In this document: positions 1 through 24,300 of the stretch, one piece after another
Numbering within the stretch: position 1 is the stretch's first letter
How the letters are laid out: each line of letters starts with the position of its first letter
Origin: a virus
Virus record (IMG/VR): IMGVR_UViG_3300018049_000075
Span: 1-34,204 of that record
Reading direction: 5' to 3' (one strand)
DNA length: 34,204 nt
The notes under the pieces: model-generated
The model's input: only the letters and a program-made list of their open reading frames with translations
Told to the model about the DNA's origin: nothing
Databases searched by the model: none
Program-made: the position numbers and the translations under genes

Positions 1-594
1 AATCCAATCTTTTTTTACAAAACGGAAAGGGTGTGCTTGCACTCGTCCTTTACGTTCTACCCATAAATCTTCCTGTGTTCCATCTTCTGCATCTTTATCT
101 CTATTAGTCATTCTATCGCTGCGACTACTATCAGGATTTTTACTAGTAGCATTAAACACTGCATCTAAATTATAATGCCATAATGCAAATTTATTAAAAC
201 TACCAACTATAATTTGATCTCCGCTACGACCATTAACAATAGGACCAATTACTCCGTGTTCAAGTTCAGGAGGAATAAATGTAGTAATTCTATTACTAAT
301 AATATTAGGAAACATGTCTTTGATTTTATTAAAAACTTGTATGCTTATATATCCTTGCCACGGTCTTGTTTCCCAACAACGTTGATAAGTTATAACATCA
401 ATCTTAGTATCTAATGAATGTTTGGTAATAATAGTACAAAGCAAATATGTAAGTAATGCACTATCTGCTCCGCCGCTTAAATTTACTCCTATACGTTTCC
501 ATTTAGGATCAAACACAATGTCTAAGTGACTAAACGTTTCTGTTATTAAAGACTCATCTAATGTCTTATAAAGTTTGTTATTAGTTTCGTACAA
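1..594 (-). CDS. PP-loop ATP pyrophosphatase-like protein, C-terminus beyond window edge
   Basis: 198 codons are visible and the frame is still open at base 1, so the C-terminal part is missing. Residues about 42-47 read S-G-G-A-D-S, preceded by a beta-strand (IGVNL). This is the PP-loop that binds ATP pyrophosphate in the QueC, asparagine synthase, NAD synthase and tRNA-thiolation families, which adenylate a carboxyl or carbonyl carbon. The only reasonable start is TTG at 594-592, with the Shine-Dalgarno GGAGAG at 604-599; no in-frame ATG occurs before the P-loop. The start lies inside the preceding radical SAM gene (14-nt overlap), so the two are probably translationally coupled. It is the last visible gene of the accessory operon. 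The CXXC zinc motif expected late in QueC would lie outside the visible part, so the subfamily is undecided. The fold call is good; the substrate is unknown. Confidence 0.75.
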   Translation of the reverse strand, partial: MYETNNKLYKTLDESLITETFSHLDIVFDPKWKRIGVNLSGGADSALLTYLLCTIITKHSLDTKIDVITYQRCWETRPWQGYISIQVFNKIKDMFPNIISNRITTFIPPELEHGVIGPIVNGRSGDQIIVGSFNKFALWHYNLDAVFNATSKNPDSSRSDRMTNRDKDAEDGTQEDLWVERKGRVQAHPFRFVKKDWI

Positions 595-1888
595 TGTTCT
601 CTCCGTCAAACTTATAGTTTGTTACATGACTATTAAAATCTTGATTCCATATATTATCAGTTTTTCTAATATATGCTTTAAAAGCATTCCAATCTTTAGA
701 ACTTGTTTTGTTATTTGTAATATAGTCCTTAATGTTCTTTAATGCCCTATGGGCACCTTCTATATCTGTCCAAGTTCCTCTATTGAAACTATGCAGATGT
801 CTTGCTTCGTCAATATTATCAAGTCGTTGTTTGTTTACTCTAAAAATCATATTTTCAGTTTCAGCAATATCTTCTAAAACTTTGGTTCCAAAGTGTTGCA
901 TCATTAGTGCAGGGTTTAGATATGTAGGTGTGTAGATAATACTACTATCAATATAATTACAATCTAAACTTAAAAAGCCTTCAAACACATCTTTAATTTC
1001 CATTATTTGATATGTTCCTGTAGTACAAACTAAATTTAATTCGCTTTTATTTTTGTTTACTTCTCTAAATTTAGCAATATTACTTTTTAGTTTGTTCCAA
1101 TCACCTTGTCTAAAATACGGATATAATGTAGGACCGCTGTCAACACTAACATGAATAACAGATTTTTTAAACTTAATAAGCAAGTCTGATAGTGTTACTG
1201 GATTAAAATCTGCATTAAAGTTACTATGAAACATGATAAGCATATTACTTGCATTAGGATGTTCTGCTAACTTTTCTAATGTAGGAAAGAATTGTTTTTG
1301 ATACAATACTTCGCCGCCTGCAAAGTCTACACGCTCTAAATTAGGAAAGTTTTTATTTAAATCGTCTACAATTTCTAATGCTTGTTTAGTAGGAATTTGC
1401 ATTGTTAAATCATCATCTTCCGATGCACGATGCATTTCACCTGTTAACTGTATTAGTTTAAGTTCTTTATCTTCCTGATCAGGTATATACTTTTTTAGTT
1501 TTTGCATCCATCCACTGCTATATACTTGACTACAATGCAAACAACTCATATTACAACTATGACTAAAACGTATTTCCGCAGTTTTTAGTCCTGCAAAGTC
1601 TACTTCTCCAGTAGTAACATTTACATTATCTAATGTTACAGGTTCTTCTTGACGCATACTCTTGCCTGCTTTACGTTCTTCAACGTGTTGACAAATGTCG
1701 CATCCTTTAGGCCATTTACCATTTAATAAGTCTAATCTATGCTTTTTAAAGTTTTCGTTATTAAAAAACTTACTAGGCAAGTAATCGTCGGAAAGGATTT
1801 GTAATTGATCACTTTGCTGTGGACAACTAGTAACAAACCCGTTTTTAAAGTTTACGCCACCTAGTGCATAGTAACATGGTAGACTCAT
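581..1888 (-). CDS. Radical SAM protein with N-terminal Cys-rich (twitch-like) domain, 435 aa
   Basis: The radical SAM cluster motif CX3CX2C is at Cys112, Cys116 and Cys119 (S-C-N-M-S-C-L-H-C), followed by a glycine-rich strand DFAGGEV that fits the SAM-binding GGE motif. About 110 residues precede it and contain Cys5, Cys22 and a CXXC at Cys63/Cys66 (K-G-C-D-I-C). This arrangement matches the family with a twitch/SPASM-like domain placed before the radical SAM barrel; such a domain usually binds an auxiliary Fe-S cluster. Radical SAM enzymes cleave SAM to a 5'-deoxyadenosyl radical that abstracts hydrogen from a peptide, sugar or other substrate. The start ATG overlaps the upstream gene by 4 nt (ATGA) and follows AAGGAG. 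It shares its architecture with the 466-aa protein just upstream, so the two look like paralogues. The substrate is unknown. Confidence 0.88.
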   Translation of the reverse strand: MSLPCYYALGGVNFKNGFVTSCPQQSDQLQILSDDYLPSKFFNNENFKKHRLDLLNGKWPKGCDICQHVEERKAGKSMRQEEPVTLDNVNVTTGEVDFAGLKTAEIRFSHSCNMSCLHCSQVYSSGWMQKLKKYIPDQEDKELKLIQLTGEMHRASEDDDLTMQIPTKQALEIVDDLNKNFPNLERVDFAGGEVLYQKQFFPTLEKLAEHPNASNMLIMFHSNFNADFNPVTLSDLLIKFKKSVIHVSVDSGPTLYPYFRQGDWNKLKSNIAKFREVNKNKSELNLVCTTGTYQIMEIKDVFEGFLSLDCNYIDSSIIYTPTYLNPALMMQHFGTKVLEDIAETENMIFRVNKQRLDNIDEARHLHSFNRGTWTDIEGAHRALKNIKDYITNNKTSSKDWNAFKAYIRKTDNIWNQDFNSHVTNYKFDGENIVRN

Positions 1889-3285
1889 TTTGTAAATATC
1901 TCCTTCATTTCAGGAAATACTTCTGTAAAACTAATACCACGCTGTGCATCGCAACGATTTAAAAATTCTTGCATTTCAGGCAAGCGTCTACTCCAGTCTT
2001 CACTTTCCATAAATGATAACATACCTTTTAAACGTTTAATACCATAACCTGCTTCCATAAATTGTTCTTTAGTAACCTTGCCTTTATGCCAACTAGGAAC
2101 ACCTAACTCCCAGTTCTCTTCCCACCATGGATAAAATTCTTCGTACTTTTTACGCACTTCTGCTTTAAACCAATCTGGCAATACCTTTACGTTCAAATGC
2201 GGTGGATGATAAACAAAATGATAGTTTACACCTCCTGCTCCAAACGGCCACATATTAATCTTTTTAAAATTTTGTGTAAGTTTCCATTTGATAAAGTCTG
2301 GAATATAATAGATGTTTAATGCTTGTACTGCACAAGCAACTGTAACTTCTGTATTGCTAGGTGTTTCATTATCAAGTATGTGGAATACTTCTTCAGTACG
2401 TTTCCATTTGCTCGGATAACGAATATAATCATTCATTTCGTGTATGCTATCAACACTATAATGAAATCTTACAAGTTTAAACTCTTTCCACAGATCAAAT
2501 AAATCGTCTCTCCATTCAACCCCGTTACTGTTATATCGAAGTTCCAAGTCCTTTGCAACACCTTGACGGATCGCTTCTTCAAGTATTTCATAATGTTCCT
2601 CTATAATTAAACTTTCTCCGCCGGCAAAATATATCTGTTGCATATTTGGCATTTGCTCATAGAACTGTTTCCAAAAAGTAGGATTTTGTTTATGCCAATT
2701 ATAACTACTACCGTTATAACTGCCTTTATCCTTCCATTGCATAGTTTCTTTAAGACTAGCATTTTCAACTGCTGGAAATATTGCTTTCCAATCTTTAACC
2801 CAGCCTGAGCTATCGTGCGGTGAACACATGACACAAGCAAGTTGACACTTGGTTCCAAAACGTAAATCGATATATGCTAATTGTGGAGGCACACTGCCGT
2901 CCTCTTTTGTACTAGCAATAAGATTATCTACATCTACACGCTCACTCCAATATGCAGTTTCCCACATACGTTTTGAATTATGTCCTGCTGCTTCTTCTTT
3001 AAAACATTTAACGCAACTAGGAGGTATTTCTCCGTTTAGCATTTGTAACCTTACATTCTTCATATAAGTGCTATTCCATGCAGTTTCAAAATCACTTACA
3101 TTTAAATTGTTAGGTTTACCATCTTCAGTTTTAAGAATACCAACTTGACCTCCGTGTACTTTATCATTTGTAGGTCCTACACTGCTTGCATTTGCAGTAC
3201 AACATACACGCATACTTCCATCTGGTCTTGTGCTAAGATGCACCCAAGGAAGGATACACCAGGTATCTGATACTTTCTTTGTCAT
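1885..3285 (-). CDS. Radical SAM protein with N-terminal twitch/SPASM-like domain, 466 aa
   Basis: The N-terminus carries Cys10 (W-C-I-L-P-W) and, after a short beta hairpin ending in PDGSMRVCC, Cys28/Cys29, then a CXXC at Cys91/Cys94. This is the layout of an N-terminal twitch domain ligating an extra Fe-S cluster. The radical SAM motif CX3CX2C follows at Cys147, Cys151 and Cys154 (K-C-Q-L-A-C-V-M-C), and FAGGES about 80 residues later fits the SAM-binding GGE strand. In most SPASM proteins the auxiliary domain comes after the barrel; here it comes first, as in the N-terminal-twitch radical SAM family known from phage and marine genomes. It sits 12 nt after the upstream radical SAM gene, with AGGTAAG ahead of the ATG, and overlaps the downstream one by 4 nt. 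The C-terminal third contains several Trp-rich stretches. The reaction is not deducible. Confidence 0.9.
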   Translation of the reverse strand: MTKKVSDTWCILPWVHLSTRPDGSMRVCCTANASSVGPTNDKVHGGQVGILKTEDGKPNNLNVSDFETAWNSTYMKNVRLQMLNGEIPPSCVKCFKEEAAGHNSKRMWETAYWSERVDVDNLIASTKEDGSVPPQLAYIDLRFGTKCQLACVMCSPHDSSGWVKDWKAIFPAVENASLKETMQWKDKGSYNGSSYNWHKQNPTFWKQFYEQMPNMQQIYFAGGESLIIEEHYEILEEAIRQGVAKDLELRYNSNGVEWRDDLFDLWKEFKLVRFHYSVDSIHEMNDYIRYPSKWKRTEEVFHILDNETPSNTEVTVACAVQALNIYYIPDFIKWKLTQNFKKINMWPFGAGGVNYHFVYHPPHLNVKVLPDWFKAEVRKKYEEFYPWWEENWELGVPSWHKGKVTKEQFMEAGYGIKRLKGMLSFMESEDWSRRLPEMQEFLNRCDAQRGISFTEVFPEMKEIFTK

Positions 3286-3297
3286 ATTAATACTTAC

Positions 3298-4350
3298 CTA
3301 ATTAACTGTGTAGTTTATTTCGTTGTGATATGCTTTATTTTTTGCACATGTCTTAATACATCTAGCAAAATGCATACTATGATAAGGGTGCCAACTTGCA
3401 CCTAATAACTTGCTATACCACTCATGTTGCATAACTTCTTGTATAGAATGGTGTTTTAAACTATTCCAATTTGGTTCAAATTGTGCTAACTTGTTTACAA
3501 TGTCTTCTTTATTTTTAAAAGCACTATCCCAAAGGAAACAGCAAGGCCACATAGTAAGATCGCTTGCAATAAAGATTTCACCTTCGTGAATATATTTGCA
3601 AACAATACTATCAGTAACTGCTTTAATTTTATCTTCATCAACTTGTGTTGTTTTGTATTCTTCAATAAACTTATCAAGTTCTTTTACAACTTCTTTTTTA
3701 CTATGTTCTTTAGCACCTGTAGTTGTAATAACCTTTTCCTGTTTATTGTTCTTTTTACCTAATTGTGCTACCCAATCATGGTAACTGTTACGCATACCTG
3801 TTCGTGTAGCAAATTCAAAATTTAACTTGGCTGCATGTTCTTTTGCTGCTTCTAATTCATGCTCATTGTGATCAAATACAATATAGATCCAAGATGCACT
3901 ATTTTTAGGTGCAGCATCAGAGAACGCTTTCATATTACGTTCAATAATATTAAACTTTGTATTAACACGATAGATATGATTAGTTTCTTTATGTCCGTCA
4001 ACACAAAAATGTATATACACTCTACCAGGATATTCTGCTGCGATGTTGCCTAAACTACGCCACCAGTCAGCAGTTTGATAACCGCCATTTGTGCTTAGTT
4101 CACAATATGCTCCGTTAGTAACTAGGTAATCTACCATCTTAACACATTCAACATTAAGAGCAGGATCTCCTAATACTCCGCAAAATTTAAATTCTTTACC
4201 GCGAATATCTGCTTCAGTAGGGAATAATCTTAAAATATCATGATATGTAAAACTTTGTATTTTTAACTTATCAGGATTAAGTGTTCTAGCACATCCTGGG
4301 CAGGCTGCATTACAATCACTAGTAATTTCTAATTCAATCTTATTAATCAT
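3298..4350 (-). CDS. Radical SAM/SPASM-like protein, 350 aa
   Basis: The radical SAM motif is almost at the N-terminus: Cys13, Cys17 and Cys20 (D-C-N-A-A-C-P-G-C). The C-terminal third has the cysteine pattern of a SPASM-type auxiliary cluster domain: one Cys before a strand pair (VCKYIHEGEIFI), a P-C-C after it (TMWPCC) and a late CXXXC (CIKTC). SPASM radical SAM enzymes mostly modify ribosomally made peptides or proteins, though some act on sugars. The cluster-binding N-terminus and domain order match the 361-aa protein immediately upstream, with which it shares a 4-nt ATGA overlap, so the two probably arose by tandem duplication and have since diverged. A lysine-rich, probably helical insertion lies around residues 195-235. 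Enzyme class confident; substrate unknown. Confidence 0.9.
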   Translation of the reverse strand: MINKIELEITSDCNAACPGCARTLNPDKLKIQSFTYHDILRLFPTEADIRGKEFKFCGVLGDPALNVECVKMVDYLVTNGAYCELSTNGGYQTADWWRSLGNIAAEYPGRVYIHFCVDGHKETNHIYRVNTKFNIIERNMKAFSDAAPKNSASWIYIVFDHNEHELEAAKEHAAKLNFEFATRTGMRNSYHDWVAQLGKKNNKQEKVITTTGAKEHSKKEVVKELDKFIEEYKTTQVDEDKIKAVTDSIVCKYIHEGEIFIASDLTMWPCCFLWDSAFKNKEDIVNKLAQFEPNWNSLKHHSIQEVMQHEWYSKLLGASWHPYHSMHFARCIKTCAKNKAYHNEINYTVN

Positions 4351-5432
4351 TTAAACTGTTCCGTATATGGGTCAAACTCTGTTCCGCACTTCATTGCACA
4401 TACACCTAGTTTACCGTTTTTAATTCCGTCAATATTCCAACTGTCTTGTATACCTTTTAATAGTGTACCATTCATTACAGTTTCAAGATCTTTATTAATT
4501 ACATCAATACCTTCTTTACCTCCAGCGTTGTCAATGTGATCCCAAATTTGTTCTACACGATAATCAGGATGCCACCATTTATACATACGTCCAGCAGTCC
4601 AACAGCAAGGCATTAATAGTCCTTCTGCTGTAATAAAAATACTACCCTGTTTGGCAACTTTACAATCAATGCTACACTTGTTATAGTATTGTTCCATGCT
4701 ACCATAAGTTTTAGTTATTTCTTCTTCTTTTAAAAGAGCAAGATTGATATATTCTTGTTTTTTAGGTTTTGCAAGTTCTGCTGTTTCTTCACCTTTGCGA
4801 TTAATTGCTTGATGTGTTTCCTTGCCTGTAAGTTGTGCTGTACTATAAAAACGTCCTGTCTTTTTTGCTACAAATCTTTCAAAGCCGTATTGCTTTGATA
4901 ATTCTTCTGCTCTTTCAACTTGATGTTCGTTATGTTCAAACACAATGAAATCCCAACGAGCCCTGCCGCCAGCATCTATAAATGCTTTCGCACTGCGCTC
5001 TACTATGCTCCAATTAACACCTTGACGATATATGTGATTAGTATCAGCCAACCCGTCCACGCTAAAAATAACAGCACCATATCTGCCAAAAACTCTCGCA
5101 AGTGATCTCCACCAATCTTCATCTCGTGCTCCTGCATTTGTATTCATACTCAACCACATTGTAGGATTGTGTTCTCTAAAATATTCAAATACTTCTAGTG
5201 TATCTTTAGCAACAATAGGATCACCTAAGTTACCACACATATACATTGTTTTAAGTTGTTTAATAAAGTCTGGTTTGAAGATACGCTTACAATCTTCAAG
5301 AGTAAGTTCTGCATTTGTAATATGCGGATTATCAGGGCCACCATTACAATTTCTATCGCACATAGGACAAGCCGCTTGACAGCGTTGCGTAATTTCTAAA
5401 TGTACTTCTTTTATGTCTTGATATCTATACAT
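4347..5432 (-). CDS. Radical SAM/SPASM-like protein, 361 aa
   Basis: Cys18, Cys22 and Cys25 (R-C-Q-A-A-C-P-M-C) form the radical SAM CX3CX2C motif. MCGNLGDP, about 40 residues later, fits the second strand near the SAM pocket. The C-terminal part has CSIDC, then FITAEGLLMPCC, and a final CAMKC, which is the spacing expected of a SPASM-type domain holding one or two auxiliary Fe-S clusters. It is the first of four consecutive radical SAM genes. Its ATG overlaps the stop of the 74-aa gene by 8 nt, so translation of the small protein and the enzyme is probably coupled. The likely product class is a peptide, protein or sugar modifying enzyme; nothing in the sequence fixes the substrate. Confidence 0.9.
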   Translation of the reverse strand: MYRYQDIKEVHLEITQRCQAACPMCDRNCNGGPDNPHITNAELTLEDCKRIFKPDFIKQLKTMYMCGNLGDPIVAKDTLEVFEYFREHNPTMWLSMNTNAGARDEDWWRSLARVFGRYGAVIFSVDGLADTNHIYRQGVNWSIVERSAKAFIDAGGRARWDFIVFEHNEHQVERAEELSKQYGFERFVAKKTGRFYSTAQLTGKETHQAINRKGEETAELAKPKKQEYINLALLKEEEITKTYGSMEQYYNKCSIDCKVAKQGSIFITAEGLLMPCCWTAGRMYKWWHPDYRVEQIWDHIDNAGGKEGIDVINKDLETVMNGTLLKGIQDSWNIDGIKNGKLGVCAMKCGTEFDPYTEQFK

Positions 5433-5649
5433 TATAAACCAATTCTACATCTTTGCCCGGACCTGCTTTGCTAGGCAAATCTCCGTATTGTTCTACATAC
5501 CATGTAATTACAGCCTTATACCAATTATGACTATTATGGTGTGCTTGTTTATTAAATTGAAATATATTATTATTTGTAGCCTGCATGGTACTCAGAGCTC
5601 TTGCACTCTCTGTTTGTAACTCGCGCAATGTTAAATTATCTAATTCCAA
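5425..5649 (-). CDS. Small protein of unknown function, 74 aa, next to radical SAM genes
   Basis: The first in-frame start is TTG at 5649-5647, with AAGGT about nine bases upstream, inside the end of the methyltransferase gene. An internal ATG at residue 22 is an alternative. The N-terminal half is predicted helical (LTLRELQTESARAL), the middle is rich in Asn, Gln and His (NKQAHHNSHNWYKAV), and the tail is SKAGPGKDVELVYNV. No cysteine, signal peptide or membrane segment is present. It lies directly before, and overlapping, a SPASM-type radical SAM gene, the usual position of a precursor or accessory peptide in peptide-modification clusters. However, it lacks a Gly-Gly leader cleavage site, Cys-rich core or repeated core motif, so that role is only a possibility. 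It could equally be a small structural or accessory protein. Confidence 0.7.
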   Translation of the reverse strand: MELDNLTLRELQTESARALSTMQATNNNIFQFNKQAHHNSHNWYKAVITWYVEQYGDLPSKAGPGKDVELVYNV

Positions 5650-6679
5650 TTTTCATATACCTTATGTATTGTCCTAAGTCTAGACGTCCTTCATATAAAA
5701 CATTTGACATAGGAGCAGTTTCACTAAATTCTTCTAGTGATTTAGAACAGTTAATGTGATCCTCAATTTCAAAGTAATTGTTACTTTGTAATATAACTAA
5801 TTTATTTTTAGGAATTTTATTATACCATTCTGCAAAGTTTTCAATATGCTCACAACTTGTGTTAATAATAGTATCAGGTGATTCTACAACTTTTGTTTCT
5901 TCACCTTTAGAATTTTTTGTAACATAAGAGTGCATATTAAAATTAATATTATGAATATCTTTAGTTGTTGCTTTAAACTTCCATTTGTCTAAAACCCAAG
6001 GCTTGTTCATAACTTCTGCAATTGAAACACACGATTCATCTATATCAAAACTTCTAATTTTGTCAACATTTATTTTAGATTCAAATAACATAGTTGCTAA
6101 TGTAGAATACCAACCTGCACAAAGATATACTGTTCCTAAACTTTGATTTAGTTTAGATAGTTCTTCAACCAACCACAGTTTACTTTTTAACTGTCCTCTA
6201 CTAAAACAATCTTTATCGTATTCTATTTCGTTAGCAAATAAATTTTTAAATGCTTCAACAAATTGTGTATCTGTGTACCTAGACAATACTGGCCAAAGTT
6301 TCCATCTATTATCTTGTATTACTAATTTTCGTAAATCTTCATCTGGTGCAAATTTAAATATGCTATATAAATTTTCTTCAATTACTGCTTTACGCAACTC
6401 GTCATTTTTAACAAGTCTGAACAAAGAATGTAAATTATCTGTTAGTGTAAACTTTCTTAAATCTTCTATGTCGCCAACAAACGACCCACTGCCAAGTAAT
6501 CTAAAAATACTGTGCTTATTTTTATCAACTACTGCTTTTCTTACATCTTCGTCTGCATGAGCTAAACGCATTATTGAACTAATATCTTTATCAATATATG
6601 CTCGTCGTAGATCAGCTAAAGCAACATTATTGTTGTATAGCAATTCAAATCTATCTAATAACTCAAATGGTTCTAGCAT
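5636..6679 (-). CDS. Helical-repeat protein fused to class I SAM methyltransferase, 347 aa
   Basis: Residues about 20-135 hold five degenerate copies of a roughly 24-30 residue unit with the pattern L-R-K-x-V-I-x-x-N-x-x-S-I-F-R-L, for example DLRKAVIEENLYSIFKF. This looks like short HEAT-like helical hairpins. From about residue 180 the sequence changes to a Rossmann-type methyltransferase: VYLCAGWYSTLA fits motif I for SAM binding, RSFDIDESC fits the acidic motif II, and DTIINTSCEHI fits the motif IV region. The acceptor is unknown; the repeats may be a docking or substrate-recruiting part. The ATG at 6679 follows AAAGGA and overlaps the end of the preceding gene by 17 nt. Its place between the sugar-transferase-like and radical SAM genes suggests one shared pathway. 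Confidence 0.8.
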   Translation of the reverse strand: MLEPFELLDRFELLYNNNVALADLRRAYIDKDISSIMRLAHADEDVRKAVVDKNKHSIFRLLGSGSFVGDIEDLRKFTLTDNLHSLFRLVKNDELRKAVIEENLYSIFKFAPDEDLRKLVIQDNRWKLWPVLSRYTDTQFVEAFKNLFANEIEYDKDCFSRGQLKSKLWLVEELSKLNQSLGTVYLCAGWYSTLATMLFESKINVDKIRSFDIDESCVSIAEVMNKPWVLDKWKFKATTKDIHNINFNMHSYVTKNSKGEETKVVESPDTIINTSCEHIENFAEWYNKIPKNKLVILQSNNYFEIEDHINCSKSLEEFSETAPMSNVLYEGRLDLGQYIRYMKIGIR

Positions 6680-8267
6680 TAAATTTTTCCTTTAACCAAT
6701 CAAAGTTGTTTATCATTTTTAGTGCGTCTACATTACCGCGATTAGCAGTACCGTACTCTCTACCGGCTCTTGCACCTTGAGTAACATAATCACCAAAAGG
6801 TTCATTATTGCCAGTATCACTTGTCCATACATCTAAGCGAATATCTGTTTCATCATCTTTCTGTCTATCAATAATTTTAGAAGATAATTTTGCACATTCT
6901 CTAAACGCACTCTTCCAGGCGTTGAACGGATCTGTATTAAATTCTGTTATGTTTGCTACTTCTTTTACAGGTTTAAATTTTCTGCTGATGCTAGTAGTCA
7001 TGTCTGGCTTACTAATATCCATATTCAAAGTTAATTCTGTAGGGAATAATTTTACACCGCCATAGCCGTATTCTAATCCTTTAACTTTATTCTCGCTTCT
7101 CCAAACATGAACAACATCATAATCTTTTATGTCTACATAGTAATCAAAATTAAAATTATCCTTAATTACTGCATCACCATCAACAATCCAAGTCATTGGC
7201 GTTTTAGATAATTTTGCTGCTTCAATGTGTGCTTGGTGAATACCTTTTACACCGTGTACACGTTGCGCTCTTGGAAATCTATGTTTTAATAATTCCCAAT
7301 TCTTTTCAGCGTTAGGTTCATTATAACTGATAAACACAATATCATAGTTACTAATACTTCTAGCAGATAATGATGCTTGCTTCATTTTTGCTCTTGCTGG
7401 GTTAGTATATACTTGCTTAAAGAACTTACTTTGTCCTGGCAGCAAAGGGTTAGGATCAATAGGAATATCTAACTGACTAATTAAATCATTACCTAGTGCT
7501 TGTATATGTATTAGCAATTCATCTTCTTTAATTCTTTCGTTTTCCCACATATTATTTAGATATGTAAAATCACGAACATTAACATAATCCCAGTCTGTAC
7601 ACATTGTCATATACAAGCCTTGTCTTGCTCCGTAGATTGCCCATAGTCCATTATCAACATCTGAGCCTACCATTGTCCAAATATACAGTCTATCTAAATT
7701 GCCTTGATGTAATTTTTTAAAATCTAAAGGTGAAACTTTTCTGCCTTCTTTTAATGCCATTTTGACACCTTCACGGAAACCTGCTCTCCATGCTTGCTGC
7801 GGTGTTTCATTATTAAGTACTGTACTATAACAGCCTTCCATATGATAATAATTAATATCCCAACAAAATTCTACTTGAGCTTGTATATTATCAGGTGGAG
7901 CATTTTCGTGTGTACGCATGTTTAGCAGTACATCTTTTGGCCAACTTTTAATACCGCCGTTGCCGTATTCTAAGCCGTTAATAATATTTTTAGCCGTCCA
8001 ACTGAGTACACTTCTACTTAGATCTACATTAGGATCTACTTCAAACTCTTGATTAACAAATTCTTGATTAATAACATTATCGCCGTCTATTACAATTAGT
8101 CTATCTGTTTCGCTTAAATCAGCACAAGCCTTATGTGCAGCATCTGAGCCTTCTACACCGTGTACACGTTTTGCCCACGGAACTTTAGTAAGAAGATCTG
8201 CATAATTCTTCTCTGCATTAGGTTCATCGTAACTTAAATAAATTATATCGTAATCTACTACTTTCAT
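6663..8267 (-). CDS. Protein with duplicated GT-A-like (glycosyltransferase-like) domain, 534 aa
   Basis: Two homologous halves are visible. The first begins near residue 6 with YDIIYLSYDEPNAEKN and carries D-G-D at residues 61-63. The second begins near residue 305 with YDIVFISYNEPNAEKN and carries D-G-D near residue 361. In both, the strand is followed by RVHGV and a helix before the D-G-D, and then a conserved Y-G-x-G-G segment about 45 residues on. A D-x-D-like triad after a Rossmann-like half resembles the nucleotide-sugar and metal site of GT-A glycosyltransferases, but the family was not recognised. The open frame extends ten codons further up to a methionine at 8297; ATG at 8267 is preferred because AGGT lies seven bases before it, it sits one base past the upstream stop, and domain one starts at once. 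Confidence 0.72.
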   Translation of the reverse strand: MKVVDYDIIYLSYDEPNAEKNYADLLTKVPWAKRVHGVEGSDAAHKACADLSETDRLIVIDGDNVINQEFVNQEFEVDPNVDLSRSVLSWTAKNIINGLEYGNGGIKSWPKDVLLNMRTHENAPPDNIQAQVEFCWDINYYHMEGCYSTVLNNETPQQAWRAGFREGVKMALKEGRKVSPLDFKKLHQGNLDRLYIWTMVGSDVDNGLWAIYGARQGLYMTMCTDWDYVNVRDFTYLNNMWENERIKEDELLIHIQALGNDLISQLDIPIDPNPLLPGQSKFFKQVYTNPARAKMKQASLSARSISNYDIVFISYNEPNAEKNWELLKHRFPRAQRVHGVKGIHQAHIEAAKLSKTPMTWIVDGDAVIKDNFNFDYYVDIKDYDVVHVWRSENKVKGLEYGYGGVKLFPTELTLNMDISKPDMTTSISRKFKPVKEVANITEFNTDPFNAWKSAFRECAKLSSKIIDRQKDDETDIRLDVWTSDTGNNEPFGDYVTQGARAGREYGTANRGNVDALKMINNFDWLKEKFNARTI

Positions 8268-8268
8268 T

Positions 8269-8805
8269 TTATACCTGTATGTAACTATATCTATCAAATG
8301 CCTTGGCTGTAAAGATACTTACATCTTTATTAGACTCTTCTTTGTCATTAATGAAACCTACTGTTATTTCGTTTTCAGTAAGTTCTTTTAGATTAACAAA
8401 AAACGTTCTTAACACAATATTAGGGTTGTCTTTTTGTGTACACGCAAACCAAAGATCTTTATCAAGTACAACATTTAATTCTTGTACTAATTTAAATGTC
8501 CACGTTTTATTTTTTGTATCTTGTACAATTTTAAAATCGTAATCGCTAACTGTATTTGGATTAATTTTATGAATACTGTCTTTTATTCTAAAAGTCATTA
8601 ATTCAAAATTTTCATCGTCTACTAGTTCATACTTCTTTTCTTCTGTATTAAATTTAATTTTATATTTTGAAATATTTTCTTTACCTAATACAACATCTTC
8701 TATTGCTTTAATAGGCACTGCAATAGAATTAGGAATTTCTTGTCCGGACATTCTTGTAATAGAACCTTTGTCGTTCCAACACAAGTACATTAACTGTTCT
8801 GACAT
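8269..8805 (-). CDS. Hypothetical protein, 178 aa, beta-rich
   Basis: No family was recognised. The protein looks mostly beta-stranded, with alternating charged and aromatic residues (YKIKFNTEEKKYELV, DYDFKIVQDTKNKTWTFKLVQ). The early segment WNDKGSITRMSGQEI could be a small barrel. No cysteine cluster, DxD, signal peptide or membrane segment is evident; a single Cys lies in the segment LWFACTQKD. The start ATG follows AAGGAAG and overlaps the preceding glycosyltransferase stop by 16 nt. The stop lies one base before the preferred start of the duplicated GT-like gene, so it is clearly an internal gene of the operon. It may be an accessory or scaffold protein for the neighbouring enzymes, but that rests on position alone. 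Confidence 0.7.
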   Translation of the reverse strand: MSEQLMYLCWNDKGSITRMSGQEIPNSIAVPIKAIEDVVLGKENISKYKIKFNTEEKKYELVDDENFELMTFRIKDSIHKINPNTVSDYDFKIVQDTKNKTWTFKLVQELNVVLDKDLWFACTQKDNPNIVLRTFFVNLKELTENEITVGFINDKEESNKDVSIFTAKAFDRYSYIQV

Positions 8806-9536
8806 TGATACTTCCTTACCTTTTCTTTGGTTACAAAATCATTTTCTGTATAATGAAATATACCGTGTTGTTTATTATTACCAATAAACAATTCACAATC
8901 GTCTGTTAAATAAACACCAACCTTATCTTGCCAGTGCTCTGGATTATTTTCCCATCCTTGTATTCTAGGTTTCATGTGTACTAGATGTGGAATATTGCTT
9001 TTATAAAAATTTGTTCCTGTAATTAAACTAGTAATAGCAGTGTTAACATCCATACTAGGTTTAGTAGGAGTGTGAAACGGACAAAACTCTGCATACACAT
9101 CTTTCCAGTTATCGTTTACTTCTTTTTGTACTTTATAAAACTCATCTGCTGCTTTAGATTTTTTAAAATAGTAAAATGCATTGTACACATTAGGTAAATT
9201 ATTTTTAATAAATGTTTTTCTATAAAACGTGTCGTTAATAACATCGCCTCTAAAGGTAAATGCTTTTGTAGTATAGTAAATGTCTTGCTGCGATAAACAC
9301 TCCCAAACATAATCTAAGTTATCTAATACTAATGTGTCAGTATCTAAAACAATAGTTTCATCATATATTGATTCTTGATATATGTTACATCTACCATCAG
9401 TTGCAAATCTACCAGTGTCCGTTTCTATAACTGTAGTAATACTAATTTCTTTATTGTGTTTACGAATGCTAGATGCACAAAGCTCTGCTTGTTCTTCGTA
9501 CTTTTCGCCAGATGCATACAATACTATTCCTCGCAT
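8790..9536 (-). CDS. Glycosyltransferase-like protein with DTD motif, 248 aa
   Basis: The N-terminus (RGIVLYASGEKYEEQAELCA) looks like the first strand and helix of a nucleotide-sugar binding GT-A fold. YDETIVLDTDTLVLDN places D-T-D at residues 65-67, the metal and nucleotide-sugar ligand in retaining, GT8-like families. A late HMKPRIQGW segment could supply the His/Gly part of the acceptor side. The upstream neighbour has the same YDETI-x-x-DTD signature, suggesting two diverged paralogues. A GTG two codons upstream (9542) also opens the frame, but ATG at 9536 has GGAGAGG five bases ahead and is preferred. It probably transfers a sugar to a glycan, protein or lipid in the host cytoplasm; donor and acceptor are unknown. 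Confidence 0.8.
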   Translation of the reverse strand: MRGIVLYASGEKYEEQAELCASSIRKHNKEISITTVIETDTGRFATDGRCNIYQESIYDETIVLDTDTLVLDNLDYVWECLSQQDIYYTTKAFTFRGDVINDTFYRKTFIKNNLPNVYNAFYYFKKSKAADEFYKVQKEVNDNWKDVYAEFCPFHTPTKPSMDVNTAITSLITGTNFYKSNIPHLVHMKPRIQGWENNPEHWQDKVGVYLTDDCELFIGNNKQHGIFHYTENDFVTKEKVRKYQCQNS

Positions 9537-10369
9537 AAGCACCTCTCCAAACTAAACTTATTCATAACATGAACATTCATTTTTTTAGTTCTACAAGCAG
9601 TAAATTTTCTTGGGTATGTAGGATCATTAATTAAAAGTAACATATTCTCGTTATCTATTTCTTTTAATATACCTTTGTCTGTTATATAATACAGTTGTCC
9701 TGGCATATTTTTAGCAAAGTCGCCTTTCTTAAATCCGTTAACAATGTGTATTGCAATACTAAAAGCGTAATCGCTTCTATATTTTTTAGATGGCAAAGAA
9801 TACACATGAGTATAATGTATCCATTCTTCTTTTATATGCTTTAACAAATCAAAATAAATTTTATTTTCATCAGTCTTTCTAAAAAATACAACACTTGCCC
9901 AGTAAAAGTCTGGACCTATTTCTCCTAATTTTTCATATTGATAAGGCCAATGATTCTCTGATAGATTTATACAGTCTTTGTATATCATAAAATTGTGTGG
10001 TTGGTCAAAACATATATTCCAATCACTATTACAAATTACAATATCAGTATCAACTAGTATAGTTTCATCGTATGGCGTTAGATCGTAAGCAAGAGGTCTT
10101 GCTTCATTCTTCCAATGTGCTTTTTTAAATCCGTAATCGCCGTCATACATTTCTCGTTGATTGCTAATTCCAAAAGATTCTTCGTCTGTATAAATTATAT
10201 TTTCAAATACAGATAGATTACATGAAGTATTTGCAACAGATGACTTATCTGTAACAACAGTAGTAGGTAAATCTAAGTATTTTAATGCACGTTCTGCTAA
10301 TTGCTGTGCCTGTAACAAATAATCAAATTCACTATTGTTTGATGCAAGTGTTAAGATACCCTTACTCAT
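9524..10369 (-). CDS. Glycosyltransferase-like protein with DTD motif, 281 aa
   Basis: KGILTLASNN opens a Rossmann-like strand-helix unit, followed by a second strand (PTTVVTDK). YDETILVDTDIVICN places D-T-D at residues 107-109, the expected metal and nucleotide-sugar site of a GT-A glycosyltransferase. EARPLAYDLTPYDETILVDTD is preceded by H-W-K-N, and aromatic-rich stretches such as HWPYQYEKLGEIGPDFYWA may line an acceptor site. It overlaps the 116-aa gene by 8 nt, and the following glycosyltransferase overlaps its 3' end. The length and the YDETI-DTD signature are close to that downstream gene, so the pair may act in sequence on one glycan. It lacks membrane segments and is presumably cytoplasmic. 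Confidence 0.8.
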   Translation of the reverse strand: MSKGILTLASNNSEFDYLLQAQQLAERALKYLDLPTTVVTDKSSVANTSCNLSVFENIIYTDEESFGISNQREMYDGDYGFKKAHWKNEARPLAYDLTPYDETILVDTDIVICNSDWNICFDQPHNFMIYKDCINLSENHWPYQYEKLGEIGPDFYWASVVFFRKTDENKIYFDLLKHIKEEWIHYTHVYSLPSKKYRSDYAFSIAIHIVNGFKKGDFAKNMPGQLYYITDKGILKEIDNENMLLLINDPTYPRKFTACRTKKMNVHVMNKFSLERCLCEE

Positions 10370-11855: not shown

Positions 11856-11863
11856 TATTTATA
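11856..11863 (-). promoter_or_regulatory. T4-type late promoter TATAAATA
   Basis: This is the exact T4 late -10 octamer on the minus strand, 26 bases before the ATG of the 354-aa structural gene. The TAA stop of the 509-aa fibre-like gene lies inside it. T4 late promoters need no -35 box and are read by a phage sigma (gp55 type) with the sliding clamp. Confidence 0.7.
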
Positions 11864-13388
11864 CCTTTAGTACGCACTCGATTAATTTTTCTTCATCGTC
11901 GGTGCTAGATTCTAAAGCCACTCCAACTAATGCCATCGATGCAATAGTTGTACAAACTCCGCCTTCCCATGCATATACTGCTTGACCTTTTGATACTGGA
12001 CCTTTTACTCTTACAGGAACACGCCCTTTAAGTGCAATGGCCTGGCCTTCACTTTCTTCATTCATTAGCAATGCCGGTGCTTCGGAAATAACTCCAATAC
12101 AAAGATCGCTTGTTTTTGCAGCTCTTGTTTCTTCGTTTCCACCAACTGCCATAGCAGTTCCAACTGCATAATGATTGTCTGTAGTATATTTTTCTGCAAG
12201 GTCTGCATAACGAGCTGTTAGTGCTGTACCTCTAAATAAATTTGCTCTTAAATCGCCGCTACCATCTCTAACTGCAACAGTGTTTGCTGTTGCTAAAGTA
12301 GCACCAAGTCTATTATTTCCATCAACTACAAGTGCAGTTGCTTTTTCTGCTAATCCTGTAAAGTTATCTGCAAACACTTCACTAAACGGTGCTGTTGATG
12401 ATCCAATACTAACTGTTTCTAAAACATAATTGTTCTCATCTGATTCTTCTACATCTGTTACACCTGGTAACATTGCAGTAGGAGTAATTCTAATAGAGTT
12501 CTTTGCTTGTGCATCAACTGGCTTAGCCATTAAAAATATAGTATTACCAATTTCGTTTGATAGTGCTATTTTATTATCTGTATTGTTTGGTACATAAATT
12601 TTAAAATCGTTTGAATCACCAATAGCAACACCAGCATCTGCAAATTCTGCAATTTCAGTAAACACTGTTGGTGCGCCTGGATTGGAAACAACAACATCAT
12701 CAACTGAAATTCTATTACCTGCAGAGTCAACTAGTGATAAAGACCCAGATGCTGTTCCCCAAAATATATGTTCACTTGATGTAACTCCGCCTGTTGCTGC
12801 TTGAGTGTTAACCATTGTAACACCTTTCTTAACAACATCAAAGCCAGGAATAACGTTTTCTGCATCAGTAGTATCAATAGTAAATGTGTCATTAGAAATA
12901 ATGTGTACAACAACATCGTTTACAACAGAAGTAATTACAGGATGTACAAAACCGTTTGTATCTCTAACAGAACGTGATTGCATCTGCGTAACACCTTCAC
13001 CTGCATCTTGCGGACCAATTAGAATAAAGTCAGTTCCGTTATATGCGTAAAGTTGTTCGTTTGCTGTATCCCACCAAAAGTCGCCTTCTGTTAAACCTGT
13101 CGGAGTGCTACCTGTAGTTTCAGCACCGCCTGTTGTACGCCATCTGCTGCCATCGTAAAATTTTAGTTTGCTTTCGTTTGAATCAAACCATACTTGACCG
13201 CTAATTGCTCTTGGTGGAGGGTTTGCACCCGCAAAATTTTCTAACAAGAACAAAAAGTTCTCGTTGTGTATTTCTCCGTATCCTGCGTAGTTTTTACCAA
13301 CAAAGTTTAGATCAGTTGACTGATCGATTGTACCGTCTTCAACTACTGTTAAGAGTGTTTTGTTGTATCTATCTATTTGATATGACAT
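11859..13388 (-). CDS. Tail fibre-like protein with shared N-terminal module and autoproteolysis-like C-terminal domain, 509 aa
   Basis: Residues 1-240 match the N-terminal module of the 619-, 632- and 676-aa proteins: NENFLFLLENFA near 42-53, GQVWFD at 64-69, then GDFWWDT-x-x-x-QLYAYNG with a following IGP. The middle is beta-rich. From about residue 390, ADLAEKY is followed by GTAMAVGG, CIGVISEAPALLMN and a VPVRVKGPVSKGQ segment. This pattern recalls the intramolecular chaperone/peptidase-G2-like C-terminal domains of phage fibres and spikes, which fold the trimer and may cut themselves off; no catalytic residue could be assigned, so cleavage is unproven. It is probably a trimeric adhesin or baseplate-attached fibre. 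A late-promoter variant lies 18 bases before the ATG, with GGAATAGG as ribosome site. Confidence 0.8.
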   Translation of the reverse strand: MSYQIDRYNKTLLTVVEDGTIDQSTDLNFVGKNYAGYGEIHNENFLFLLENFAGANPPPRAISGQVWFDSNESKLKFYDGSRWRTTGGAETTGSTPTGLTEGDFWWDTANEQLYAYNGTDFILIGPQDAGEGVTQMQSRSVRDTNGFVHPVITSVVNDVVVHIISNDTFTIDTTDAENVIPGFDVVKKGVTMVNTQAATGGVTSSEHIFWGTASGSLSLVDSAGNRISVDDVVVSNPGAPTVFTEIAEFADAGVAIGDSNDFKIYVPNNTDNKIALSNEIGNTIFLMAKPVDAQAKNSIRITPTAMLPGVTDVEESDENNYVLETVSIGSSTAPFSEVFADNFTGLAEKATALVVDGNNRLGATLATANTVAVRDGSGDLRANLFRGTALTARYADLAEKYTTDNHYAVGTAMAVGGNEETRAAKTSDLCIGVISEAPALLMNEESEGQAIALKGRVPVRVKGPVSKGQAVYAWEGGVCTTIASMALVGVALESSTDDEEKLIECVLKV

Positions 13389-13415: not shown

Positions 13416-13886
13416 TTATTGCAGTAGCATCAAACATGCCCAATTTTTATCGGTAGTTGACGTTTTAATCTCATGTAAGTTTTTTAAACTAAATTTGATC
13501 CCTTCGCCGGTTGAAATTCTAGCCTCATTTCCAGCTACCCAAATATTATTACTATCAGATAAACTGTATGCAATTACAGTTCCTGCAACTGGTGCATCAA
13601 CCCATGCGTTTTGTTCATCTAAAAATCCTGTATTTGCAGGTAAGTGTAAAAACCATCCTATAAGTGCTTTATCAATATCATCTTGATTAAAGCATTCTTT
13701 GAAAGAATTACGTGTTGCTCTATCCCAAGTTTTCCATTTAGAGAACGAATAGACGCTCAACTTGTTAGCACCATTAGTGCCAAGTCGTATTCTATTGCTT
13801 ACAAAATCTATGTTACTTTGTAAGTTTTTTAATGTAGCAATTTTATCTGCTTCTAGATTTCCTATTCTTTCAATCATGTCTTTCAC
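13416..13886 (-). CDS. Hypothetical protein between oxygenase and fibre gene, 156 aa
   Basis: The family is not recognised. The first 35 residues look helical (IGNLEADKIATLKNLQSNID), the centre has aromatic residues (FSKWKTWDRATRNSF, GWFLHLP), and the C-terminal half is beta-rich with G-E-G-I-K-F and L-H-E-I near the end. That end resembles the last strands of cupin or oxygenase-like barrels, but no metal triad could be assembled, so it is not called an enzyme. The frame opens with GTG at 13886, overlapping the oxygenase stop by 4 nt; ATG at 13877 is an equally good start. Tight coupling to the oxygenase suggests a joint role, perhaps a fibre assembly factor. Confidence 0.7.
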   Translation of the reverse strand: MKDMIERIGNLEADKIATLKNLQSNIDFVSNRIRLGTNGANKLSVYSFSKWKTWDRATRNSFKECFNQDDIDKALIGWFLHLPANTGFLDEQNAWVDAPVAGTVIAYSLSDSNNIWVAGNEARISTGEGIKFSLKNLHEIKTSTTDKNWACLMLLQ

Positions 13887-14404
13887 TCATACAAATATAT
13901 TAAAGTATATCTTAACTTCTTTACTTCCGGCACTGAATGTGTAGGTCCTATTCCGTTAATACATACTCCCTGTCCTGTAACATCTTCAACAAATTTATCT
14001 TCATCGTCGATGTACAAACCATCGCCTTGTTCTTGTAGAGATATTACAAGGTTTTTTCTGTAATAATCTCTATCCTTGTGCTTTCCTAAATAATCTCCTT
14101 GCTTATACCTATTTATTGCTATTTCAGCAAGTCTATAGTTTTCAAATTTAGGAGCAATATCTTTTAGAAACTCTTTAGTTTCTTTAGACATTTGCTTATG
14201 CCCACAAAAATCATATTTACAACTAGCACCGTCGATTGCTCTTCCCGGTGCCATTCTATCTCTATGAAACCACCTAGGTTCTTCTATAGATTCTGCTAGA
14301 GAACGCACTTGTAGTGCTATATCCTTTTCTAATATTTTAGATATCTCTAGTGTCTGTTCCATATTCTTGAATTGCGCCTTCGTATTTCTCATTAATTGCA
14401 GCAT
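13883..14404 (-). CDS. 2-oxoglutarate/Fe(II)-dependent oxygenase (prolyl-4-hydroxylase-like), 173 aa or shorter
   Basis: H-x-D at His109/Asp111 (GKHKDRD), a distal His156 (PTHSVP) and Arg165 nine residues later (LRYTL) form the complete Fe(II) and 2-oxoglutarate site of the prolyl-4-hydroxylase/AlkB-like superfamily. INRYKQGDYL before the first His and the LVISLQ strand after it fit the jelly-roll core. Such enzymes hydroxylate proteins, nucleic acids or small molecules, and they are common in marine T4-like phages, often among structural genes. The frame overlaps the preceding gene by 68 nt; an internal ATG at 14362 (residue 15) would cut the overlap to 26 nt and still keep every motif. Shine-Dalgarno evidence is weak for both, so the start is undecided. 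Its place between fibre genes suggests a virion-protein substrate, which is inference. Confidence 0.85.
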   Translation of the reverse strand: MLQLMRNTKAQFKNMEQTLEISKILEKDIALQVRSLAESIEEPRWFHRDRMAPGRAIDGASCKYDFCGHKQMSKETKEFLKDIAPKFENYRLAEIAINRYKQGDYLGKHKDRDYYRKNLVISLQEQGDGLYIDDEDKFVEDVTGQGVCINGIGPTHSVPEVKKLRYTLIYLYE

Positions 14405-21325: not shown

Positions 21326-21333
21326 TATTTATC
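21326..21333 (-). promoter_or_regulatory. T4-type late promoter GATAAATA
   Basis: GATAAATA on the minus strand lies 19 bases before the ATG of the 204-aa gene. The TAA stop of the giant gene is contained in it (CGA-TAA-ATA), the same stop-in-promoter arrangement seen at 11856-11863. Confidence 0.6.
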
Positions 21334-24300
21334 GTGGTAACTCAGTTGTCTTCGCTTGTAAGAACTTAGCAATGTCATTTTCTGATTTAGATAACGCAAT
21401 GCCCGGTTCTGACCATAAAGTACCAATCCTTTTAACGATTGTTACCTGTGTTCCAGCCGGTGGAGGCGATGTTAAACGTACATACGCACCCACGTTTTTG
21501 TTTACTGCAAACTCTGCTTCTACTGTAATGTCGCCTTCTGGACTATCTTGCGCATCGTAATTGTAAACACTTATTGGTGATTTACGCAATCTACGTCCTG
21601 CAACAAATACTTCAATGTCTTGTGCTTCCCAATACTCTAATGGAATACTTGTAAAGTCTAATACTGTGCCCGTTCCTGCTGGAATGCTTGTAGCAATAAA
21701 CTCTGTTCCAATAGCATTGTTTGGTGAACCATAATTTGTAAATGTTGTTGTGCCCTGAGAAGCAATAACATAGCCTCTACCCGGAACAATTTCACTTACT
21801 GGTATCTCTGCTTGCTCTTTATACCATCCTGTTGCAGTTCTTGGGTTTGGTATTGGAGCATACGGTAATAAAATTTGTACATAAATCACTGCGCCTGGTA
21901 CAACAACACTAGTTTGCGCTCTATCAATTGGTACTGATGTTGCAGGATTTACAACTACTAGGTCATAAGCACCTACAGGCAACAACGGAGTAATAAACAA
22001 TACTTCTGTATCACTTACGTATGTACTGCTGTTATAAACAACATTCATTATGCCGTTACCTGGTGTTAATACTTCTGCTGTTCCGCCTTGTGTTGTACTT
22101 ACTGCAATAGCAACTTCGTTTGCTGCTGCACTACTATCGAGTGTTGATGCTTTTACTACATCAACTACATAGTAATCTGTATCAGGTAGTAATCCACCAA
22201 ATGGAGTTCCTGTAAATCTTATAACTTTGCCATCAATTAGAGTTTTGTTCCAACTATTTGGTTGGAAGTAAAACGGTGGTTTTACTCTAATATAAGAACT
22301 TGTTAAAATATCATTTGCTGGTAAAGTTACTGTTGGTTCGGTATCTCCTACAAGAACGTTAACATTAGTTTCAAATTCTGTACCAATAATAGTTGTCAAC
22401 TGTCCGCCTAATGGGAAAGCAGTGTTATTGTTAAAGTCGTATGTAAACTTATCTACTGTAACGCCTGCGCTATCCTCATATATAGTTGATGCTATACTGT
22501 AACCACTACTTGTAACCGTGACAGTTTCTTCTTCGTCTTTGTACGGAACAGTTGTATCAACATTACCAGAAACAAAAGTTGTTCCTGCTTCGTATGAGGT
22601 TTTAATACTAGTTCCTAATGTTCCTCTGCGGAGTTGTTTTAATTCATTGCCGTCTTTAACAAAGTATTCAATACGTTCTCCGTTGATGAATATAACACCT
22701 GGATATTTTGCATCAAATGCTGGGCTAGGCAAATTAGTTGCATCTACAACTTTAATAATTTTATCGTAATACAATAATTCTTCAGCAAGTTCATAACTTT
22801 CTTCTAGACGCTTGTAATGTGTTCTGTTTAGAATGTCTTTAAATTGTCTCCAACCAAACTGATCTACAACAACACCGTTTGCAAAATGTATAAGTTCAAT
22901 TACATCATCTTCAGCAGGTTGTTGAAGTAATTTCACAGTTAGTTTGTTGGTTGTTAACGAGTAATCAACACTAGGCATTAACAGTTGTCCATTTTGTATT
23001 ACCCAAACAAACTCTGCAGATAACGCAGGTGATCTTAAATCAAACAGTCCACGCTGCCATCTTCTAAATGCATAGTAATCTTCGGTGCCTACTTCTAATT
23101 CTGTTTTTTCAGTAACTTGTATTTTTTGACGTTCAATGCCCTGACTATCATGATTACTAAACTGATACACTGTAATAATATCGTTATCATTGTAAGCAGA
23201 AGTTAGATATATTGTTCCAGGTGTTCTTTGGAAATCATTATTATTATCATAGTAACCTAAATTGTATTCTGCATCACTAATGATGTAAACTTCAAGTTTA
23301 TCACCCGCTTCGCCAATACCTAATTCAAGTGTAACTGTACTACCTGCTTGACCCGATGGCGGCAATGTGCTATCATATGCACTTGCACCTTCAAATGTCC
23401 ATTCTTGCAAGTAAGTTAATCTTCTTCCATTCAGATAAACTTCAACATCATATGCGTTAACACTTGCAATAGGTACCTGAGTTAAGTCTAACTGATATTG
23501 TCTAGTAGATGTTACATCAAATGTTTCATTGTAACCAGCATGTAATACTTTGTCATTAACTTTAACAAGCATATTTGTTCTTAATGGTTCTTGCTCAAAA
23601 GGTGCTTGACTTAGTGCAAAGTTTGTAGTACTACCATCTGCTACAATAGAATCAATAGTAACTTGACTATATCCTACATTTGTTAGTCCTTCTTCTGCAA
23701 TAAGAACTTTAATGTTTGCATCTGTAAACGGAGGTGACGGTAATTTAACAATAAAGTTACCTGGATATGCATACGTTTCGTCTGCTTCTAGTAAAGATAC
23801 ATTTACTACCTTACCGTTCACTGTAACAAATGCTTCTGCACTATCTTGGTATCTTGCATTTGAAAGGAATTCAACTGTAGTGCCGTCGCCAGTATATGTG
23901 TCAATATCTAATATATTTGAAGCACTCATCCCTACTGAAATAATGTTTATTCTTTGTCCTAAGGTTGGTGCGGTATCAAATGTAACTGTTTCACTGTTAT
24001 AGTCAATTACATAATCATCACTTGTTAAAATAGTTGATCCCACTTTAACAAATAAGTTTTCTTTCTTAATTGGAGAAGCACCAATACTATAAGTTCTTGT
24101 TGCACCATTGCCAATATAGTTTCTTGATTCTATTTGTGAAGATCCTACAGTAGGTCTTTCGTAAACTGTAATATCAAGAGTGTCAAGAACTTGTCCTGGT
24201 ACAACTTCTTCTGGACCTTTTGATGTAGTATGTGTTACAAATCCGTCACCGTCTACAGTAATATCTTCTGATCTTAAACCTGTAGCAGTTTGATATTGTA

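Follow-up and report, generated by a model that had tools for sequence, protein, structure and literature searches.

An island of radical SAM and glycosyltransferase genes beside phage tail-fibre genes, with a candidate role in surface sugar modification

The window analysed here, the whole 34,204-base stretch of virus record IMGVR_UViG_3300018049_000075, carries on its minus strand an island that begins with glycosyltransferase (GT) genes right after the tail-fibre region and includes four adjacent genes for radical S-adenosylmethionine (rSAM) proteins, named SP1, SP2, TW2 and TW1. Other names used are PP for a PP-loop gene, MT for a methyltransferase-like gene and S74 for an open reading frame (ORF) of 74 amino acids (aa). 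Past the fibres the order on the minus strand is P281, GT250, a 178-aa ORF, GT544, MT, S74, SP1, SP2, TW2, TW1 and PP. By coordinates, the genes are:

1..609, minus strand: PP, a QueC-like PP-loop ATPase, running off the window edge (full length 277 aa, seen in the longer contig L005, below)
581..1888, minus strand: TW1, an rSAM protein of 435 aa with an N-terminal twitch (N-twitch) motif; passes the NF033640 family model (below)
1885..3285, minus strand: TW2, an N-twitch rSAM protein of 466 aa; passes the same model; core member in phages and Bdellovibrionota
3298..4350, minus strand: SP2, an rSAM protein of 350 aa with C-terminal SPASM/twitch-like cysteines; optional member with a Bdellovibrionota homologue
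4347..5432, minus strand: SP1, an rSAM protein of 361 aa with a C-terminal twitch motif; core member with a Bdellovibrionota orthologue
5425..5649, minus strand: S74, a conserved 74-aa protein with a TTG start and a predicted three-helix fold
5636..6679, minus strand: MT, methyltransferase-like on a reading of motifs
6663..8297, minus strand: GT544, two fused glycosyltransferase-like domains, GTx and C3, the C3 half modelled as a GT-A fold
8269..8805, minus strand: a 178-aa protein, conserved in position between two glycosyltransferase genes
8790..9542, minus strand: GT250, a probable glycosyltransferase (phrog_1903 and Npun_R2821-like matches, both weak)
9524..10369, minus strand: P281, a probable glycosyltransferase (phrog_1903, weak)

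S74 and SP1 overlap by 8 nucleotides, SP1 and SP2 by 4, TW2 and TW1 by 4, and TW1 and PP by 29; a gap of 12 separates SP2 from TW2. A first reading of this DNA (the original prediction) had described the four rSAM genes with their sizes, couplings and one CX3CX2C motif apiece, all of which were confirmed in the window ORFs; the genes of the cluster are real, but the island is longer at both ends than was described. The same virus is represented by a 79.5-kb contig, L005, with 100% identical SP1 and SP2. Beyond the window edge this contig holds the full PP, a second TW2-type gene, c8, an SP1-type gene in two ORFs, c5 and c17, adding five or six rSAM genes, and 10 Radical_SAM matches were counted on it.

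The CX3CX2C motif starts at residue 18 in SP1, 13 in SP2, 147 in TW2 and 112 in TW1. The two architectures proposed at the outset were recognised. In SP1 the additional cysteines are C-terminal (C257-X13-G-X4-C276, then C345-X3-C349), and SP2 has the same cysteines without the glycine. In TW2 and TW1 an N-terminal twitch motif of the form CX9-15GX4C with a later CXXC precedes the barrel motif (C10..C28 with C91xxC94, ahead of C147, in TW2; C5..C22 with C63xxC66, ahead of C112, in TW1). All four proteins matched the Radical_SAM model, three above the curated cut-off and SP2 narrowly below it; the Pfam SPASM model matched neither SP1 nor SP2. A subfamily profile search, suggested with the original prediction, assigned TW2 (417 bits) and TW1 (195.6 bits) to NF033640, a family of twitch domain-containing rSAM proteins (cut-off 170 bits) whose name states no reaction, but left SP1 (42.6 bits) and SP2 (31.7 bits) outside it. 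Among solved structures, BlsE was one of the nearest to both SP1 and TW2.

Scans of viral contigs (IMG/VR) gave 225 relatives of SP1, 122 of SP2, 525 of S74 and more than 500 of PP. Neighbourhoods were taken from the best 80 relatives per scan, so the loci lean to close kin. The SP2 scan supplied more than half of the 62 loci flanked on both sides, so three scans were dereplicated and counted apart (18, 25 and 20 loci, the last from the S74 scan). Clustering of neighbours revealed the recurring order P116-P281-GT250-x-GTx-C3-MT-S74-SP1-SP2-TW2-TW1-PP-TW2'-c8-SDR-c5-c17, with insertions. A core of GT, MT, S74, SP1 and TW2 was present in 15/18, 16/25 and 16/20 loci, and all 20 loci of the S74 scan, for which no rSAM protein served as query, contained SP1 and TW2. 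All four window rSAM genes were found together in 5/18, 18/25 and 8/20 loci, and in the exact adjacency SP1-SP2-TW2-TW1 in only 2/18, 7/25 and 3/20. The anticipated co-occurrence of the four genes is thus a recurrence of SP1 and TW2, the core pair present at nearly all loci, but not of the quartet, SP2 and TW1 being optional. Across the 62 loci the median was 9 rSAM genes per 21 kb; TW2 and MT occurred in 95% and PP in 73%, and SP2, TW1, c8, c16, c18 and others were variably present.

The carriers, uncultured aquatic phages, appear to be largely T4-like: a T4-type Gp23 capsid protein was found on 12 of the 18 contigs tested, and one of these shares 69-73% identity with the capsid proteins of jumbo T4-like phages. 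Each phage contig has 3-20 rSAM matches. Among 50,697 phage records S74, C3, PP and c17 had zero matches, with no cultured phage carrying S74, and SP1 had distant matches only. A second, diverged phage group was found through PP relatives at about 40% identity. Its order is P281-GT250-GTx-C3-c17-SP1-MT, with PP, c5, c8 and TW2 nearby; the flanking genes also encode a nucleotide-sugar dehydrogenase that scored over its subfamily cut-off, a class-III aminotransferase and a protein that resembles amidinotransferases by eye and matched no model. S74 is absent from this group and from the bacterial islands described next.

Cellular homologues were sought in one scan of genome contigs for SP1; the genomes are metagenome-assembled and may contain binning errors. 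The nearest cellular SP1 proteins were 41-49% identical and lay mostly on Bdellovibrionota contigs. Three matches of 63-71% identity seem to lie on phage contigs that were placed in bacterial bins; loci L171, L172 and L173 (binned as Gammaproteobacteria, Neisseriaceae and Rickettsiales) show the phage version with S74 and are probably phage contigs in such bins. Nineteen cellular loci had a close SP1, most of them in Bdellovibrionota and with glycosyltransferases nearby; TW2 lay within 10 kb in 13/19 and c17 likewise in 13/19. The Bdellovibrionota islands combine orthologues of SP1 and SP2 with TW2, c17, MT and glycosyltransferases, and their location is likely chromosomal since the contigs span 0.3-0.9 Mb and carry housekeeping genes. 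On one 350-kb chromosomal contig (L179) SP1 shares an overlap with the ORF of a nucleotide-sugar dehydrogenase, after which come a GT2 gene and a gene for a PMT/ArnT-like enzyme; the GT2 protein n19 recurs beside SP1, TW2, c17 or MT at several Bdellovibrionota loci. Nine such genomes had 6-33 NF033640 matches each, many over the cut-off, and none of 14 control genomes had a match over it. Two Bdellovibrionota islands, read entire, contain long runs of N-twitch rSAM genes (G020:C1:745468-774898, loci L401-L403, and G019:C15:638312-665211, loci L404-L405). Relatives of SP1, SP2, PP and MT accompany these runs, and HTTM-like membrane, SGNH-like and amidinotransferase-like proteins were noted there by eye.

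In a quick tree, phage and Bdellovibrionota SP1 formed one starred set (97), and phage and Bdellovibrionota SP2 were joined (100, also starred). Because each groups with its own Bdellovibrionota homologues, the split between SP1 and SP2 is older than the separation of the phage and bacterial copies. This contradicts a recent tandem duplication of pairs in the phage lineage and, with the 22% identity of TW1 and TW2, leaves the two duplicated pairs initially proposed unsupported. A distant relative of SP1 was also seen in metagenome-assembled gammaproteobacteria (around 10000 in L230, L233, L236, L242, L243 and others), where it follows a 166-aa methyltransferase-like gene and is flanked on one side by translation genes/ihfA/merR and on the other by an ilvE-like gene; the order is conserved in about 10 loci.

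As to the accompanying proteins, PP has an SGGADS loop at residue 45, and C222, C251, C254 and C257 are invariant among 25 relatives; an SGGxDS loop with four zinc-type cysteines is common to PP and the QueC/Cys4 PP-loop enzymes. The QueC model did not match the PP of the window virus at E 0.1 and matched 3 of 25 PP members (best E 0.0099). The four invariant cysteines would be compatible with a carboxylate activator. MT has N-terminal repeats and conserved FSRGQ, DID and INTSCEH motifs, from which it may be a methyltransferase; a distant relative in pelagiphage Mosig is annotated as one. The C3 half of GT544 was modelled as a GT-A fold (predicted local distance difference test, pLDDT, 91.4) with an invariant DxD (D58/D60), and its top fold matches in the PDB were nearly all glycosyltransferases (E 3e-5 to 1e-3, probability 0.9-1.0, with a template-modelling score of only about 0.4).

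S74 was modelled as a three-helix fold (pLDDT 91.9). It is conserved end to end (75% mean column identity), has no variable core and no cysteine, and is encoded between MT and SP1, directly upstream of the latter in the window. Searches of the PDB by sequence and by fold produced no match that stood up, the sequence matches being short stretches of designed repeat proteins and antibody chains, which were discarded. A precursor of a ribosomally synthesised and post-translationally modified peptide, with conserved leader, variable core and disorder, is ruled against by the full-length conservation and the predicted fold; a carrier protein was also considered, and the PDB fold search gave no match resembling acyl carrier proteins. 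One phage sub-group (L049-L059, L066, L069, L073, L074 and L080) lacks S74 and has MT proteins of up to about 600 aa and, beyond SP1, a Nudix-like c29 together with c30 and c31 on the other strand; no fusion of S74 into the long MT proteins was found. Conservation along its length, the predicted fold and the position between MT and SP1 suggest for S74 the probable role of a small scaffold or adaptor linking MT/GT to SP1.

What sequence and modelling show, namely a recurring gene set, its cysteine motifs, the predicted folds of C3 and S74 and the homologues in Bdellovibrionota, leads us to favour, with modest confidence, a phage island whose rSAM genes take part in building an unusual sugar that is then attached to a surface glycan. 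The sugar substrate, the order of steps, the acceptor and the part played by S74 we infer as follows. An activated host sugar, plausibly a nucleoside diphosphate-uronate, would be the starting material. Several rSAM oxidoreductases would alter it, the recurring set being SP1, TW2 and the downstream c17, c8 and c5, and the QueC-like PP might adenylate a carboxylate on the way to an amide or nitrile. MT, with optional SDR, acyl-, carbamoyl- or amidinotransferases, would complete the sugar, which GT-A enzymes (GTx/C3, GT250 and P281) would move to a glycan on the surface of the host or on the tail fibres of the virion, with S74 bridging MT/GT and SP1. Sugar modification is preferred to peptide maturation on account of the glycosyltransferase fold, the nucleotide-sugar dehydrogenase whose ORF overlaps SP1 on a chromosome, and the aminotransferase and carbamoyltransferase genes found nearby. 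BlsE, for its part, acts on a nucleoside sugar acid. Nucleotide-sugar dehydrogenase families were over cut-off in 11/22 island-bearing phage contigs, as were epimerase families in 11/22; together with the lack of any NTP_transferase or nucleotidyltransferase match (0/22), this suggests that host sugars are remodelled. The earlier suggestion of a dedicated, phage-carried, multi-step modification pathway is upheld insofar as the core co-occurs both in related phages and on Bdellovibrionota chromosomes. That phages and predatory Bdellovibrionota share such a pathway, with several rSAM enzymes working in series on one sugar, a QueC-like PP, S74 in the phages and a product sugar new to chemistry, is put forward more tentatively, as something that may well prove otherwise.

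Several results weigh against the sugar reading. The 79.5-kb contig of the window virus has neither a nucleotide-sugar dehydrogenase nor an epimerase, and the missing nucleotidyltransferase counts here as well. MT matched no family model or PDB sequence, and the PDB sequence search found no relative of GTx. The resemblance to BlsE, like that to NifB, is a general rSAM resemblance.

Other contrary points favour peptide or protein modification, in which the rSAM enzymes would crosslink, epimerise or hydroxylate a protein (S74, a tail fibre or one of the host's) and the glycosyltransferases would glycosylate it. Most characterised SPASM/twitch rSAM enzymes act on peptides, the nearest solved relative of TW2 is SkfB, the island adjoins tail-fibre genes with S74 immediately upstream of SP1, and Asp/Arg hydroxylase-family neighbours would suit protein modification too. 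We nevertheless regard this explanation as unlikely, given that S74 is a conserved, cysteine-free protein with a predicted fold and no variable core, that it is missing from the Bdellovibrionota islands and the second phage group, and that nucleotide-sugar enzymes recur. A diffusible aminocyclitol- or nucleoside-like compound directed against host or competitors would account for the carbamoyltransferase, AMP-ligase, class-III aminotransferase and amidinotransferase-like genes that recur nearby in relatives, and for the BlsE resemblance of SP1 and TW2; it is improbable, since the island goes together with several glycosyltransferases and with tail-fibre genes, and no exporter or resistance gene was recognised among the annotated neighbours.

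The genes might also be a loose set of unrelated auxiliary metabolic genes with no joint pathway, as the variable members and the rarity of the four-gene adjacency could suggest. Gene-distance correlations were low within the island and no better than with neighbouring structural genes, so that its parts are mosaic, a further point against a single pathway; as proof of co-inheritance the correlations proved uninformative. The recurrence of the core in two phage groups and on bacterial chromosomes renders a loose set quite improbable. Modification of bases or nucleosides in phage DNA or tRNA by a route like that to 7-deazaguanine, suggested by an rSAM enzyme beside a PP with QueC-like cysteines, is very improbable in view of the glycosyltransferases, the surface-glycan context in bacteria and the QueE model, which none of the four window rSAM proteins or the downstream ones tested passed.

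Elsewhere in the window, a single 4287-aa ORF (21329-34192), which lies upstream of the tail-fibre genes, encodes a putative structural protein of giant size. Near its C-terminus, a 509-aa fibre-like protein (11859-13388) weakly matches, below cut-off, the autoproteolytic chaperone domain Peptidase_G2, and a 173-aa protein (13883-14404) resembles 2OG-Fe(II) oxygenases (Pfam, below cut-off) and is labelled a DNA endonuclease in PHROGs.

rSAM proteins are iron-sulphur enzymes and expectedly costly for a phage; a load of 3-20 per contig is striking in that light. The recurring core, more than 500 viral S74 loci and an orthologous island in predatory bacteria suggest an abundant but so far unseen surface chemistry with a possible role in controlling host recognition or exclusion. 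The island offers concrete enzyme targets, and it raises a possible link between the carrier phages and Bdellovibrionota.

The original prediction knew of no described phage system with this set. Islands rich in rSAM genes have, however, been reported (PMC2853527, PMC5332604, PMC7029224). Campylobacter phages CP220 and CPt10 have 11-12 rSAM genes, five of them in an exchangeable block with a glycine amidinotransferase (PMC2853527). These phages are T4-related and nucleotide-diphospho-sugar transferases adjoin the rSAM block, but their SP1 relative shares only 26% identity, along half its length, there is no S74, C3 or PP match, and in the stretch examined the block lies away from the tail-fibre locus. 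In the window, by contrast with that block, no amidinotransferase was recognised; amidinotransferase-like genes in relatives were identified by eye only. A T4-like marine environmental genome, TARA_ERS488813_N000010, has 12 rSAM genes and may belong to the same phage group; in the text examined they are presented as part of iron-sulphur metabolism, and no cluster, small protein or pathway is described (PMC5332604). In pelagimyophages, host-recognition islands next to the tail fibres contain glycosyltransferases and cassettes of rSAM genes, which the authors connect with changes in the host O-chain (PMC7029224). Pelagiphage Mosig EXVC030M likewise has its MT relative and an rSAM gene among UDP-sugar aminotransferase and carbamoyltransferase genes, but tblastn found no S74, C3, PP or c17 match in it and an SP1 match of 22.5%. 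Searches of open-licence papers found none that relevantly linked Bdellovibrio, rSAM enzymes and glycosyltransferases. The core gene set, S74 and the connection to Bdellovibrionota thus look undescribed, within a kind of phage rSAM island that was already known.

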